A stretch of 64,000 nt of DNA from a virus. The position numbers and the translations under genes were made by a program. The notes beneath the pieces are model-generated. The model was not told the origin of the DNA. It worked only from the letters and a program-made list of their open reading frames with translations, and did not search any database. The stretch lies in the IMG/VR virus record IMGVR_UViG_3300032331_003707, positions 1 to 64,000 of that record; one strand, 5' to 3'. Numbering within the stretch: position 1 is the stretch's first letter; each line of letters begins with the position of its first letter. Positions 2,654 through 39,328 of this stretch are shown piece after piece.

Positions 2654-4087
2654 ATGAATTCAAGTTTTGCCTATTTACCTCAAAATGAGAGGAAAAAAAT
2701 CCTATTAATTTGTGATGACATCCGAGTTCCATCTGGTGTAGCAACTGTAGGAAGAGAATTAGTATTAAATACTGCTCAACATTTTAATTGGGTAAATATT
2801 GGAGGAGCTCTCCAACACCCTGATCAAGGAAAAAGACTTGATCTTTCTCAAGACACAGATATTAATACTGGATTAACTGATTCATCAGTATATATGTATC
2901 CTGTAAGTGGTTATGGGGATGCTAATTTAATTAGGCAACTCATTAAGATTGAAAAACCAGATGCCATTTTCTTAATTACTGATCCTAGATATTTTATATG
3001 GTTGTTTCAAATTGAAGGTGAAATCCGTAAACAAATTCCTATTGTGTATTTAAACATCTGGGATGATTATCCGGCGCCTATGTACAACCAGGCATTTTAT
3101 GAGTCATGTGATGCATTATTAGCTATTTCAAAACAAACAAAAAATATTAATGAATTAGTATTAGGTGATAAGGCTAAGAATAAAATAATTGAGTATGTAC
3201 CTCATGGTTTAAATCATGATACATTCAAACCACTTAATAAAACTGATAAAAATCTAACTGAATTTAAGAAAAAATTATTTGGTAATAAAGAATATGATTT
3301 TGTTTTATTCTTTAACTCAAGAAATATCCGCCGCAAACAAATCCCAGATACAATGCTTGCGTATAGATTATTTATAGATCAATTACCTATTGAAAAAGCT
3401 AAAAAATGTGCTCTTGTTTTACACACTCATGTAGTAGATGAAAATGGGACAGATTTAGCAGCTGTACAAGAATTGCTTTTAAATGGAGACCAATATAATA
3501 TCATCTTTACTCCAGGTAATATGGATTCAAATGATATGAATTTATTGTATAATTGTTCTGATGCTCAAATATTATTAACTAACAATGAAGGTTGGGGATT
3601 AAGTTTAACAGAAGCTATATTAGTAGGTAATCCAATTATTGCTAATGTAACTGGTGGAATGCAAGATCAAATGCGCTTTAGTATTAATGGAAAATGGATT
3701 GATTTTGATGCTGATTTTCCTTCAAACCATAATGGTACTATTAAAGAACATGGAGAATGGGCATTCCCAGTCTACCCAACTAATAGATCAATTCAAGGAT
3801 CACCATTAACCCCATATATCTGGGATGATAGATGTAATGCTGAAGATGCAGCAGAGCAAATTATGAATGTTTATAATTTAGATAAGGAAGAAAGAAAAGC
3901 ACGTGGGCTAAAAGGACGCGAATGGGCTTTATCAGATGAAGCGGGGCTTACAGGTGAAAAAATGGGTCAAAGAGTTATAAAAACCTTAGATACATTATTT
4001 AAAACTTGGAAACCAAGAGAAAAATATGAATTTATAAATGTAAATGAAGTTAAAGACAAAACAATCCCTCACAAATTAGTATATTAA
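2654..4087 (+). CDS. Glycosyltransferase, GT4-like (GT-B fold)
   Basis: 477 residues. The N-terminal Rossmann-like half has the GVATVGRELV loop (about residues 28-37) that binds acceptor in GT-B enzymes. The C-terminal half carries NNEGWGLSLTEAILVGNPIIA at about 309-330, the E-x7-E nucleotide-sugar binding region of GT4. Transfers a sugar from a nucleotide donor; donor and acceptor cannot be read from sequence. It is the first gene of a 21-kb carbohydrate operon and is followed 7 bases later by another GT-B enzyme. Confidence 0.85.
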   Translation: MNSSFAYLPQNERKKILLICDDIRVPSGVATVGRELVLNTAQHFNWVNIGGALQHPDQGKRLDLSQDTDINTGLTDSSVYMYPVSGYGDANLIRQLIKIEKPDAIFLITDPRYFIWLFQIEGEIRKQIPIVYLNIWDDYPAPMYNQAFYESCDALLAISKQTKNINELVLGDKAKNKIIEYVPHGLNHDTFKPLNKTDKNLTEFKKKLFGNKEYDFVLFFNSRNIRRKQIPDTMLAYRLFIDQLPIEKAKKCALVLHTHVVDENGTDLAAVQELLLNGDQYNIIFTPGNMDSNDMNLLYNCSDAQILLTNNEGWGLSLTEAILVGNPIIANVTGGMQDQMRFSINGKWIDFDADFPSNHNGTIKEHGEWAFPVYPTNRSIQGSPLTPYIWDDRCNAEDAAEQIMNVYNLDKEERKARGLKGREWALSDEAGLTGEKMGQRVIKTLDTLFKTWKPREKYEFINVNEVKDKTIPHKLVY

Positions 4088-35234: not shown

Positions 35235-35494
35235 TGGATCAAATAGGTTATGTCTTATTATACACCATTAATGGATTAGCAATAGCGTTTGTAGTATATA
35301 TTGGGGTTTGGATGCCTAAAGAAAAAATGAAAGGCCACGCCGGTAGAGGTAAATGTAAATGTTGTAATGAGAAAGTAGTATATCATGAAGACGATAATGG
35401 GAATTGGTTCAAAACTACACGTGACAAAGATGGGAACCGAATCTACATGGAAAGTAATGATGGAGTAATTTTTGATAATAGAAAAAATAATTAG
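35231..35494 (+). CDS. TM protein with CxCC motif
   Basis: 87 residues: N-terminal TM helix (YVLLYTINGLAIAFVVYIGVW), then KCKCCNEKVVYHEDDNGNWF, a possible half zinc knuckle facing the cytoplasm. Its stop is inside the first helix of the following structured RNA. Confidence 0.55.
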   Translation: MMDQIGYVLLYTINGLAIAFVVYIGVWMPKEKMKGHAGRGKCKCCNEKVVYHEDDNGNWFKTTRDKDGNRIYMESNDGVIFDNRKNN

Positions 35495-35750
35495 CCCCGC
35501 TCGCGAGGGGATCGTAAAACACAGTAAGCCTCTGAGATCGTACCAGCTATACTATTATGGTATAGGCGAACCTCAAGTAACTGTTCTCATCGTATAGGAG
35601 ATAGGGTGTTAGTTAGCCTTTTCAAACACCCGACGTCGTATCCAGACTTTAAAAGGCAACTATTAGTGAACTTCGGTACCCATACCGCTGACGATGGGCT
35701 AAGTAAGATACAATTCCGTGCTGCGGGGAGTAGAATGCCGAAGAGCTAAT
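35490..35750 (+). ncRNA. Structured RNA of unknown class (about 260 nt)
   Basis: No ORF, and GC content well above its surroundings. Ends pair: ATTAG (35490-35494) with CTAAT (35746-35750), then CCCCGC (35495-35500) with GCGGGG (35723-35728). Inside: CTATAC/GTATAG hairpin (35547-35565), GGGTGTT (35604-35610) with AACACCC (35625-35631), and GCCTTTT (35616-35622) with AAAAGGC (35651-35657); the last two helices interleave, pointing to a pseudoknot or two alternative folds. TCGTA occurs four times. It lies just before two tRNA-like RNAs. Known large phage RNAs near tRNAs (GOLLD, ROOL) are a comparison, but it is shorter. Confidence 0.6.
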
Positions 35751-35758
35751 AGTAACAT

Positions 35759-35858
35759 AGTCAGGTGGTGTAATTGGGTAGCACAACGAAACGGGAGTAA
35801 CCGAAAGGCCAGTACCAATCTACTTGCGTTGATATAGGTTCGAATCCTGTCCTGACTA
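35759..35858 (+). ncRNA. tRNA-like RNA 1 with enlarged anticodon domain
   Basis: Acceptor stem AGTCAGG/CCTGACT (7 bp, 8 with the flanking T-A), D arm GTG...CAC with GGGTAG loop, and canonical T arm ATAGG-TTCGAAT-CCTGT. The anticodon position has a stem CAACG/CGTTG but closes a 38-nt loop instead of 7 nt, with an internal CC-GAAA-GG hairpin. No anticodon can be assigned. No CCA is encoded (ends A-CA). Not a group I intron by size. Confidence 0.65.
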
Positions 35859-35873
35859 CAAAATTAAATAGGA

Positions 35874-35978
35874 ATGACACAGGAGGAAATAAAACATTGG
35901 GTCGATAGGTGGTCGAAACTAAAGCCATCTCCTCAAAGAGATATGGTAATTAAGATTTGGTCTAGGTTATTGAAATAA
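35874..35978 (+). CDS. 34-residue ORF between the tRNA-like RNAs
   Basis: MTQEEIKHWVDRWSKLKPSP..., with AGGA before the ATG and a Trp-rich amphipathic helix. It fits exactly between the two tRNA-like RNAs. Small, so it may be chance, but codon use and Trp content look protein-like. Confidence 0.4.
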   Translation: MTQEEIKHWVDRWSKLKPSPQRDMVIKIWSRLLK

Positions 35979-35983
35979 AACAT

Positions 35984-36137
35984 AGTCAGGTGGTGGAATG
36001 GTAGACACATAATGACACGCACGGCAACCTTGAATAAGTGCACTTTGAAAAGGCAATGCGAATGATGAAGAACACTACCTCACAGTGCGTAGGTAAAATT
36101 CAAAGTGTTCATACAGGTTCGATTCCTGTCCTGACTA
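35984..36137 (+). ncRNA. tRNA-like RNA 2 with large insertion
   Basis: Same acceptor stem (AGTCAGG/CCTGACT), tRNA-Leu-like D arm (GTGGAATGGTAGACAC) and perfect T arm ACAGG-TTCGATT-CCTGT. Between D and T arms are about 105 nt instead of about 40. Pairing there includes ACGCAC/GTGCGT and CACTTTGAA/TTCAAAGTG, which may be alternatives. 17 bases at the 5' end (AACATAGTCAGGTGGTG) are identical to tRNA-like RNA 1. No clear anticodon. Confidence 0.65.
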
Positions 36138-36153: not shown

Positions 36154-36193
36154 GCGTAGTAACCTCAGGGGTCTGCAGCCCCACTACGCTCCA
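36154..36193 (+). ncRNA. tRNA-like minihelix ending in CCA
   Basis: GCGTAGT pairs with ACTACGC (7 bp acceptor-like), enclosing AACCTCA and the hairpin GGGG-TCTGCAG-CCCC (T-arm-like, 7-nt loop), then T-CCA. This is the acceptor/T half of a tRNA with no D or anticodon arm. It ends 3 bases before tRNA-CAU. It may be a tRNA relic or a charged minihelix; also compatible with a simple processing hairpin. Confidence 0.45.
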
Positions 36194-36196
36194 TTA

Positions 36197-36270
36197 GCGC
36201 CCTTAGCTCATTAGGTTAGAGCAACTGACTCATAATCAGTAGGTACCTGGTTCGATCCCAGGAGGGCGCA
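36197..36270 (+). tRNA. tRNA with CAU anticodon (Met or Ile2)
   Basis: 74 nt with normal cloverleaf: acceptor GCGCCCT/AGGGCGC, D arm GCTC...GAGC, anticodon stem ACTGA/TCAGT with loop CTCATAA (anticodon CAT), T arm CCTGG-TTCGATC-CCAGG. CCA not encoded. CAU may read AUG or, if lysidine-modified, AUA; AUA is common in this AT-rich genome. Confidence 0.92.
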
Positions 36271-36289
36271 CAAAATTTTTTTAACTATA

Positions 36290-37196: not shown

Positions 37197-37798
37197 GGAA
37201 TAATTTTGAGCAAATACGTAATATGTTGAAATTTGAGGATGATTATTTTTATTTCATTCAGATTATTCAACGTAAAAAAGAAAACCCTGAATTATGTTCT
37301 AGTAATAGAGTTATTCGTTCATATAATATCTCCAGTTTAGAGAAGTTTGATAAAGACAAAGATGAAATTATCACATTATGTGAAACATTTAATGCTCGTG
37401 CTTACATTCACTTGAATAGAAGAAAGTGGAGTAAGATTGCTTTAGAGTGTTTAAGACACAATGCTGAATTAATTGCAAATGAGCAGTACTATGGTATTAA
37501 ATCTAGTTTTGAAACTATCATTGGGCGTAACAATGGTGAATCAAGTAGAACCAAAACATGGATTATTGATGTTGATATGAATGATTTGGAGGTTGTAAAT
37601 AAAATTGAACGTATTATTAACAGTATAGAACCTATAGATAGGACTGTAACCAAATTAATGCATATTATTCCTACCAAGAATGGATATCATATGATTACTA
37701 CACCCTTCGATAGAGCTGAATTTAACAAATATATGCAATTACAAGGTGATGTACCTGATGTACACACCGATAATCCAACAATATTATACGCAATATGA
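37193..37798 (+). CDS. AEP primase-like domain protein (possible)
   Basis: 201 residues from ATG 37193. FNARAYIHLNRRKW, then TWIIDVDMND (hhD-h-D-like metal motif) and IIPTKNGYHMITTPFD (the s-x-H motif) occur in the order and spacing of archaeo-eukaryotic primase/PrimPol and ligase-associated nucleotidyltransferases. It is followed by an RNA kinase and an RNA ligase, so it may act with them on RNA ends. Activity is inference. Confidence 0.55.
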   Translation: MRNNFEQIRNMLKFEDDYFYFIQIIQRKKENPELCSSNRVIRSYNISSLEKFDKDKDEIITLCETFNARAYIHLNRRKWSKIALECLRHNAELIANEQYYGIKSSFETIIGRNNGESSRTKTWIIDVDMNDLEVVNKIERIINSIEPIDRTVTKLMHIIPTKNGYHMITTPFDRAEFNKYMQLQGDVPDVHTDNPTILYAI

Positions 37799-38184
37799 AA
37801 GATTTAATATTATTAAGAGGGTTACCTGGAGCAGGTAAGTCAACATTAGCTAAGTCATTAAGTTGTTGTGTATTTGAGGCGGATCAATATTTTATTGACT
37901 CTGAAACTGGCGAATATAAATTTGATATGTCAAAAATAAAACTAGCTCATGATTGGTGTAAATTGCGTGTTGGACATAGTATGGAAGATGGGTTAGGTAC
38001 GATTGTAGTTGCTAATACTTTTACCCGAGAATGGGAAATGGATGCTTATTATGAGTTAGCCGAAAAGTATGGATATCGAGTGCATTCTGTTATTGTGGAG
38101 AATAGACACGATGGAGTGAATGAACATGGATGCCCAGATGATAAAATAAAACAAATGAAAAATCGTTTTGAAATAAAGTTATAA
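37795..38184 (+). CDS. Polynucleotide kinase-like P-loop kinase
   Basis: 129 residues, ATGA overlap with the upstream gene. Walker A GLPGAGKST (residues 9-17), FEADQYF with the catalytic Asp, and a lid-region NTFTREWEMDAYY. Lacks the phosphatase domain of T4 Pnkp (301 residues). Phosphorylates 5'-OH ends of RNA/DNA in this family. An RNA ligase starts one base after the stop. Confidence 0.75.
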   Translation: MKDLILLRGLPGAGKSTLAKSLSCCVFEADQYFIDSETGEYKFDMSKIKLAHDWCKLRVGHSMEDGLGTIVVANTFTREWEMDAYYELAEKYGYRVHSVIVENRHDGVNEHGCPDDKIKQMKNRFEIKL

Positions 38185-38185
38185 T

Positions 38186-39328
38186 ATGGAAAATAATAAT
38201 TCAGTGTGCTACGTAGCACGCATAAACGAAATCAAAGAAATCCCAGGAGCAGATAATATCGAGCAAGGTGTTATCGGTGGATGGAATTGTATTATCAAGA
38301 AAGGAGAATACAAAGTAGATGACTTGGTTGTAGTGGCAACAACCGATGCAGTCATTCCTGTAGAGTTGTCAGATGCAATGAATGTAACCAATTACTTACG
38401 TAAAGGTCAACGTGTGCGTACTGTTAAGTTGAGGGGAGTATATTCTGAGTGTTTGATTATACCTTTAAGATATGCTCGTCAATCTGCTAAGTACACTAAA
38501 TTGGAGTGGGATGAAGGTAAGGATATAATGGAATTGTTGGGTGTCTACAAGTATGAACCACCAGTACGCCAAGTACAATTGGCTGGGGGTCGTAAAATTA
38601 AATATAAAGACAATCCTAACTTCACAGTATATCACAAGTTCCCTAACATTAAGAATGTAACTGGAATGTTTACTGAAGAAGATTATGTACAAATTACTCG
38701 TAAGATACATGGTACAAATGCTCGTTACGGTATTGTTAAGAAACATAAATTATCGTTTTGGGATAAAGTTAAAAAACTCTTTACTAACAATATATGGGCT
38801 GAATATGAGTTTATATATGGGTCCCATAACGTTGAGAAAGGTTCAGATACACAAGGTTTTTATGATACTGATGTTTGGAGGGAAGTAGCTGATAAATATG
38901 ATATCAAAAACAAGTTATGGGAGTTTGCTAAAAAAATCTCACCAGCTGTAATTGGGTCTGGGGTAGTAGTTTATGGTGAAGTATATGGTCCTGGTATCCA
39001 AAAGAACTATGATTATGGGTTAAAGGAGTTAGAGTTTGCTGGGTTTGATATTACAGTCAATGGTACATACCAAACCACATTCGCTACTAGACATATTATG
39101 GTTGGTGCATTCGAATTACCACACGTACCTGAATTATGTGAACATACATCTTGGTCACAAGAGATTCAAGACCAATTCACATTCAACAACTTCATTGAAG
39201 GAACTAAAGTACCACATGAAGGTATTGTAATCAAACATATAAGTGGACAAAGAGAAAAAATAGCCAAAGTAATCAACCCAGACTACCTCATCTATGGAGA
39301 GAAACACGATGTAGGAGATAGCCACTAA
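38186..39328 (+). CDS. RNA ligase, DraRnl (Rnl5)-like
   Basis: 380 residues. N-terminal OB-like domain (about 1-125), then the ligase core: motif I TRKIHGTNARYG (Lys that becomes adenylated), motif III/IIIa VVVYGEVYG, motif IV HEGIVIK and motif V AKVINPDYL. This order with an N-terminal OB fold matches DRB0094-type nick-sealing RNA ligases. With the kinase it would repair cleaved tRNA. Confidence 0.85.
   Translation: MENNNSVCYVARINEIKEIPGADNIEQGVIGGWNCIIKKGEYKVDDLVVVATTDAVIPVELSDAMNVTNYLRKGQRVRTVKLRGVYSECLIIPLRYARQSAKYTKLEWDEGKDIMELLGVYKYEPPVRQVQLAGGRKIKYKDNPNFTVYHKFPNIKNVTGMFTEEDYVQITRKIHGTNARYGIVKKHKLSFWDKVKKLFTNNIWAEYEFIYGSHNVEKGSDTQGFYDTDVWREVADKYDIKNKLWEFAKKISPAVIGSGVVVYGEVYGPGIQKNYDYGLKELEFAGFDITVNGTYQTTFATRHIMVGAFELPHVPELCEHTSWSQEIQDQFTFNNFIEGTKVPHEGIVIKHISGQREKIAKVINPDYLIYGEKHDVGDSH

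Follow-up and report, generated by a model that had tools for sequence, protein, structure and literature searches.

The window, meaning the whole 64,000-nt stretch of DNA that was analysed, comprises positions 1-64,000 of a 100,345-bp virus record. It contains an array of RNA elements in which two tRNA-like RNAs, RNA1 and RNA2, are accompanied by conserved non-coding RNAs, a short open reading frame and a tRNA-Met, with two RNA-repair genes downstream (Table 1). The tRNA-like part of such an RNA is termed the shell here, and the RNA standing in the place of the anticodon arm is termed the cargo; loci in other phages are designated by L and a number.

Table 1. Features of the RNA array and of the downstream RNA-repair genes, in window positions.
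Feature	Position	Strand	Description	Evidence
Conserved non-coding RNA region	35490..35659	+	Upstream of module A	blastn, 68-98% identity in L291, L282, L307, L316, L263 and others
Module A	35660..35752	+	Conserved, free-standing hairpin RNA immediately 5' of RNA1; core GGGCTAAGTnAGATACAATT..GGnAGTAGAATG	118 IMG/VR stretches, alignments
RNA1	35759..35858	+	tRNA-like; acceptor AGTCAGG/CCTGACT, D arm, 4-bp anticodon-type stem, 38-nt loop, T arm, discriminator A	Sequence; Rfam tRNA (RF00005) 24.8 bits; seven-member family
RNA1 cargo	35789..35826	+	AAAYGGGAGTAACCGAAAGGYCAGTACCAAWCnACTTG replacing the anticodon loop	8 IMG/VR stretches and alignment
34-aa ORF	35874..35978	+	Between RNA1 and RNA2; synteny marker of the slots	About 92% DNA identity in L269, L314, L340 and others
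RNA2	35984..36137	+	tRNA-like; acceptor and T arm as RNA1, Leu-type D arm, 104-nt cargo	Sequence; homologous shells
RNA2 cargo (module B)	36009..36112	+	Pseudoknotted structured RNA	18 contigs; covariation
Module B helix 1	36017-36022/36085-36090	+	ACGCAC/GTGCGT	
Module B helix 2	36070-36075/36105-36110	+	GAACAC/GTGTTC	
Small hairpin	36154..36193	+	GCGTAGT..ACTACGC-TCCA, 7-bp stem, between RNA2 and tRNA-Met	Fold z -2.4; kept in L005, L269 and others
tRNA-Met (CAT)	36197..36271	+	Ordinary tRNA, end of the RNA array	ARAGORN; Rfam 69.3 bits
Polynucleotide-kinase-like AAA_33 protein	37795..38184	+		PHROG 2071/505, Pfam AAA_33
RNA ligase	38186..39328	+	PHA02142 OB fold and RNA_ligase	PHROG 968, Pfam PF21189/PF09414

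A 7-bp acceptor stem, a T arm with a TTCRA loop and a D loop with G18G19 are present as in tRNAs, and the 5-bp anticodon stem, 7-nt loop and U33 are absent from RNA1 and RNA2 on inspection. RNA1 is laid out as AGTCAGG-TG-GTGT..GCAC-AACG-[38 nt]-CGTT-GAT-ATAGG TTCGAAT CCTGT-CCTGACT-A and RNA2 as AGTCAGG-TG-GTG..CAC-[104 nt]-ACAGG TTCGATT CCTGT-CCTGACT-A; shells homologous to RNA2 occur in L242, L243, L244, L247, L249, L250 and L255. The initial annotation had described two tRNA-like RNAs with oversized anticodon domains, which is confirmed by the sequence, by the covariation of RNA1 and by 41 further IMG/VR stretches in which the joint 5' and 3' pattern encloses an oversized middle. Its term tRNA mimics was also correct, the top half and elbow being tRNA-like and the anticodon arm absent. 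Near-identical acceptor stems and T arms had been noted, which holds for the acceptors but not quite for the T stems, these being one base apart (ATAGG vs ACAGG); the sizes given for the inserts stand, with the insertion of roughly 100 nt in RNA2 measuring exactly 104 nt and the loop in RNA1 38 nt.

Both RNAs are missed by ARAGORN and by Rfam at the gathering threshold, and the only ordinary tRNAs in the window according to these two tools number two. A tRNA search with relaxed settings, as the initial annotation had proposed, aligned RNA1 to RF00005 with 24.8 bits, short of the gathering score (29), and placed the 38-nt insert precisely in the anticodon loop, while RNA2 gave no RF00005 match at gathering or relaxed settings. 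Neither RNA matches the tmRNA covariance model (RF00023), ARAGORN finds no tmRNA in the window, the GOLLD and ROOL models of Rfam give no match, and the two cargos match no Rfam family at gathering or relaxed thresholds. No copies of an RNA1- or RNA2-type element were found elsewhere in the 100,345-bp record. Minimum free energy folds of single elements were no better than those of shuffled sequences, so that the claims about structure made here are based on covariation.

The closing stems of module A covary, and this hairpin is found between tRNAs or ahead of shells in phage RNA arrays; it has no Rfam match, and Rfam likewise detects nothing in the region at 35490-35659. The hairpin following RNA2, together with its TCCA, resembles a minihelix with a CCA end. 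Downstream, the RNA-repair genes that had been pointed out as lying near the two RNAs are indeed present but probably incidental to the shells: of 145 shell-bearing loci, only 14 have a member of the ligase family no more than 4 kb from a shell, and some of those loci were fetched by a ligase query. No protein family is common to the shell neighbourhoods, the best being found on 14 of the 145 loci.

The shell family in phage RNA arrays

The comparison with related phages, which had likewise been proposed, yielded 203 distinct RNAs with the AGTCAGG/CCTGACT acceptor at 145 phage loci, a set that is partly biased and in which acceptor invariance is somewhat overstated because exact shell patterns were used to fetch the loci. 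To avoid this bias, length was assessed on the 111 shells retrieved by the 3' end only, whose median is 99 nt. The 3' end pattern alone is present in at least 120 IMG/VR stretches, and ten large phage records carry up to 13 exact 3' ends each on a single strand (a reversed control pattern gave 0). Across approximately 85,000 bacterial and archaeal genomes, an exact match was found in only one, a Bacteroidetes MAG, where the matches are confined to one phage-like 254-kb contig; it is from the name of this one MAG only that we infer Bacteroidetes as the host group. Among catalogued phage isolates, BLAST returned no record with both shell ends, and blastn with the shell ends and the whole region returned weak or ordinary tRNA matches only.

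A normal 5-bp/7-nt anticodon arm was detected in 3 of the 203 shells vs 240 of the 301 other tRNAs on the same loci, and shells of ordinary tRNA length (68-76 nt) likewise lack the arm. Judged from the sequence, decoding is impossible in nearly all shells. Two AGTCAGG shells have normal anticodon arms, Gln(TTG) and Lys(TTT) (L119:4020-4089 and L170:13032-13101), so the shell can hold a real anticodon arm too. The bases of the tRNA elbow are retained in the family (U8, A14-R15, G18G19 and the TTCGA T loop, with a 15-48 A-U pair in 81%), as are U at position -1 (85% of shells), A73 (88%) and C74 (98%); CCA is not encoded, as is also the case for adjacent ordinary tRNAs. Where the acceptor varies, pairing is mostly retained via G-U, and some other members of the family exceed the RF00005 gathering score. 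It is very probable, as read from these sequences, that the anatomy of the family is that of a fixed tRNA-like shell holding unrelated RNAs in the place of the anticodon arm.

Several further arrangements were observed. One subfamily of shells has a second T-arm-like hairpin right after the D arm (L108:12546-12667, L110:2521, L115:1679, L120:3204, L125:3307), and in some shells (L250:3420-3478 and the L240 element after position 3715) an extra hairpin lies within the D loop, which may thus offer a second place for cargo. Additionally, a small hairpin of the form NNNNG-GAAAGA-CNNNN is often located a few bases upstream of a shell (L096:1000, L096:1600, L126, L146, L194, L252).

Conserved cargos and their exchange at fixed slots

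A scan of IMG/VR for the RNA1 loop retrieved 8 stretches, from which, together with the window, an alignment of seven distinct members was made. Across these seven phages the loop is nearly invariant, and covariation is seen in each of the four stems (acceptor, D, anticodon-type and T), with 96% of cells paired and 11 of the 20 pairs changed on both sides; this was matched in 0 of 500 shuffles, and slid controls scored far lower. One member (L263) has a wholly different acceptor stem and keeps the loop. On these comparative grounds, an unchanging loop atop varying stems marks RNA1 as a functional RNA element.

The cargo of RNA2, module B, is present on 18 further contigs plus additional fetched loci. 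Its 17 pairs in four helices are paired in 100% of cells, with 8 pairs doubly changed (0 of 500 shuffles); the ACGCAC/GTGCGT pseudoknot helix is invariant and is thus supported by pairing, not by covariation. Module B is housed in AGTCAGG shells or, in L245 and L253, in a degenerate shell that lacks a normal T loop, and it also occurs right after a shell 3' end (L126, L146, L194) or outside shells. A permuted HDV-like ribozyme, proposed for module B by eye, was rejected, the putative catalytic C varying to U jointly with its partner. Pairing in trans between module D (TGAGGTAGTG, in L096 and L101) and the complementary CACTACCTCA of RNA2 was dismissed as coincidence, since no copy of module B was found on either locus.

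For 48 of 217 cargos a non-identical relative was found, forming a dozen or more recurrent families, and no motif was common to all cargos among 93 non-redundant middles. Judged by such alignments, a good part of the cargos is demonstrably conserved and structured.

Across phages, 18 distinct elements, representing roughly ten types of cargo, occupy the slot right after module A. L314 and L340, which share 92% and 99% identity on the two sides of this slot, carry elements of 66 nt and 136 nt there with unrelated middles and a common rare TTCTGACT 3' end, and L291, which upstream shares 98% identity with the window, carries a different cargo from it. At the next slot, some phages have only a 25-nt stub, AGTCAGG..CCTGACT (AGTCAGGTGGCAATTGGTCCTGACT). 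These locus comparisons show that related phages exchange cargos at fixed slots while the shell ends and flanks are kept, and exchange within the conserved shell ends accounts for ends that are identical and middles that are not. GIY-YIG-like nuclease genes lie near shells on approximately 12 of the 145 loci, with one immediately downstream of module A in L307 (L307:721 onward; others at L140:4327-5085 and L173:13004-13684), and might drive the cassette exchange.

Interpretation of the shells and cargos

The shells share with tRNAs (RF00005) the acceptor, D and T arms, the 15-48 and 18/19-T-loop contacts, U at -1, A73 and a CCA that is unencoded as in neighbouring tRNAs, but they differ in having no anticodon arm, in cargos of up to about 150 nt, in a near-identical acceptor over unrelated cargos and in cassette replacement. 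Like tmRNA (RF00023), they combine a tRNA-like domain with other RNA in the place of the anticodon arm; however, they are far shorter and occur many per phage, and true tmRNAs are separate in such arrays. In one phage RNA array (L083:7609-8193), matches to a group I intron and to a tmRNA lie side by side. GOLLD and ROOL are also phage-encoded structured RNAs near tRNA islands, but GOLLD members are often longer than 800 nt and form nanocages, whereas the shells are about 100 nt and the tRNA is their outer shell. The stable RNAs C and D of phage T4 are reportedly non-decoding RNAs within the T4 tRNA cluster and are likened to the shells by description only; we know of no multi-copy swappable RNA family in T4. 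Engineered tRNA scaffolds are laboratory constructs in which foreign RNA is placed in the anticodon arm for stable production, and the phage shells would be their natural counterpart. Judged on open-licence papers, the shell family has apparently not been described before.

For the cargos, a functional model by analogy may be the pseudo-ToxI of phage PhiTE, a non-coding phage RNA that mimics an antitoxin RNA and blocks the host toxin (PMC3475682). This likeness would be one of function; pseudo-ToxI consists of tandem repeats, as opposed to the tRNA scaffold seen here. The pseudoknot of the RNA2 cargo, as supported by pairing, is a candidate likeness to type III antitoxins; the cargo has no match among known antitoxins in Rfam.

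RNA1 and RNA2 may belong to a family of tRNA-scaffolded cargo RNAs that is specific to phages and has an effector role, a reading to which slightly less than an even chance is given. Under this proposal, the host's RNase P, its 3'-end processing and its CCA addition would release the RNA from within a long transcript as a stable, capped molecule. Such a role of the shell in maturation is likely: conservation of the elbow and of the 5' context suggests excision and stability. The shell ends, being identical, would likely double as homology for recombination. The cargos would act as RNA effectors in infection, binding host proteins and blocking or distracting them, with defence nucleases or toxins as the most plausible targets. 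Four traits of the cargos favour an effector reading: restriction to phages, structure, presence in multiple copies, and turnover between closely related phages. A documented case of a phage RNA that mimics an antitoxin (PMC3475682) speaks for it too, and targeting of defence nucleases or toxins would account for the turnover. A counter-defence role is nevertheless somewhat doubtful on balance, being weakened by the lack of a shared protein family or linked counter-defence gene near the shells. For modules A and B, which are widespread and strongly conserved, a constant partner fits better than a fast arms race. The combined picture of a modular RNA-effector arsenal, with shells matured by host tRNA enzymes, cargos swapped by recombination at the shell ends and a counter-defence function, is accordingly put forward only tentatively, as a possibility that we hold to be rather less than even.

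Other explanations attribute the middles to processing or to passage. In the reading of the shells as transcript punctuation, they would mark cut sites for host tRNA enzymes in long phage transcripts and the middles would be passengers. This agrees with shells frequently lying in the gap from one gene's stop codon to the start codon of the following gene, with all of them on a single strand, and with a conserved elbow and U(-1) around middles that mostly have no common motif; it is unlikely, however, as covarying cargos and near-invariant loops indicate selection on the middles, several consecutive shells have no intervening genes, and a fixed acceptor sequence is not needed for cutting. Structural constraint alone would not demand a near-universal acceptor sequence either, which is a counterpoint to the scaffold as well. 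The initial annotation had also suggested tRNAs with unknown processing, i.e., intron-bearing tRNAs whose inserts are spliced by an unknown route, perhaps by the phage kinase and ligase, to leave decoding tRNAs. The insert does lie at the anticodon loop, RNA1 retains its 4-bp anticodon-type stem, kinase and ligase genes are nearby, and group I introns and tmRNA are found in such arrays (L083). Introns are disfavoured all the same and highly improbable: they are no general explanation given arm-less members of normal length, the near-invariant RNA1 loop starts with AAA so that no simple excision would give a conserved U33 family-wide, inserts of 38-104 nt match neither group I nor any other known intron family in Rfam, the same slot is occupied by different cargos, and module B is also found outside shells.

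The nearly identical ends, the cassette-like replacement, the empty stubs and the GIY-YIG-like genes near shells (approximately 12 of 145 loci) would suit selfish cassettes, DNA-level units that recombination or homing endonucleases would spread and from which the phage would gain nothing. Against this, covarying stems and conserved cargo loops point to constraint on the RNA, most loci have no nuclease nearby, and tRNA tertiary-contact bases are retained that would be superfluous for a DNA element, making selfish cassettes distinctly improbable. A similarly small probability is given to base-pairing guide or antisense RNAs on a tRNA scaffold: hypervariable middles on a fixed scaffold recall guide arrays, but the recurrent cargos are structured, unlike unstructured spacers, and the longest complementarity of the RNA1 and RNA2 cargos to the rest of the window is 12 nt each, at the level of chance (shuffle means 10.8 and 11.9). 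Decoys for anticodon nucleases in the strict sense, another suggestion of the initial annotation, are very unlikely, since RNA1 and RNA2 are without an anticodon loop and 200 of 203 shells present no normal anticodon arm; the Gln(TTG) and Lys(TTT) arms of two shells and the evasion of tRNA-cleaving defences by phage tRNAs (PMC10264068, PMC11555353) count in their favour. A wider role as RNA decoys or inhibitors is the leading, if tentative, reading.

If the anatomy described here is true, phage tRNA arrays contain hundreds of unrecognised non-decoding RNAs that escape annotation tools or are wrongly called by them as tRNAs with nonsense anticodons. If the proposed effector role is true as well, cassette exchange would be a new route by which viruses evolve RNA effectors, phage RNA arrays would do more than supply codons, and every cargo would be a bait for its host binding protein.
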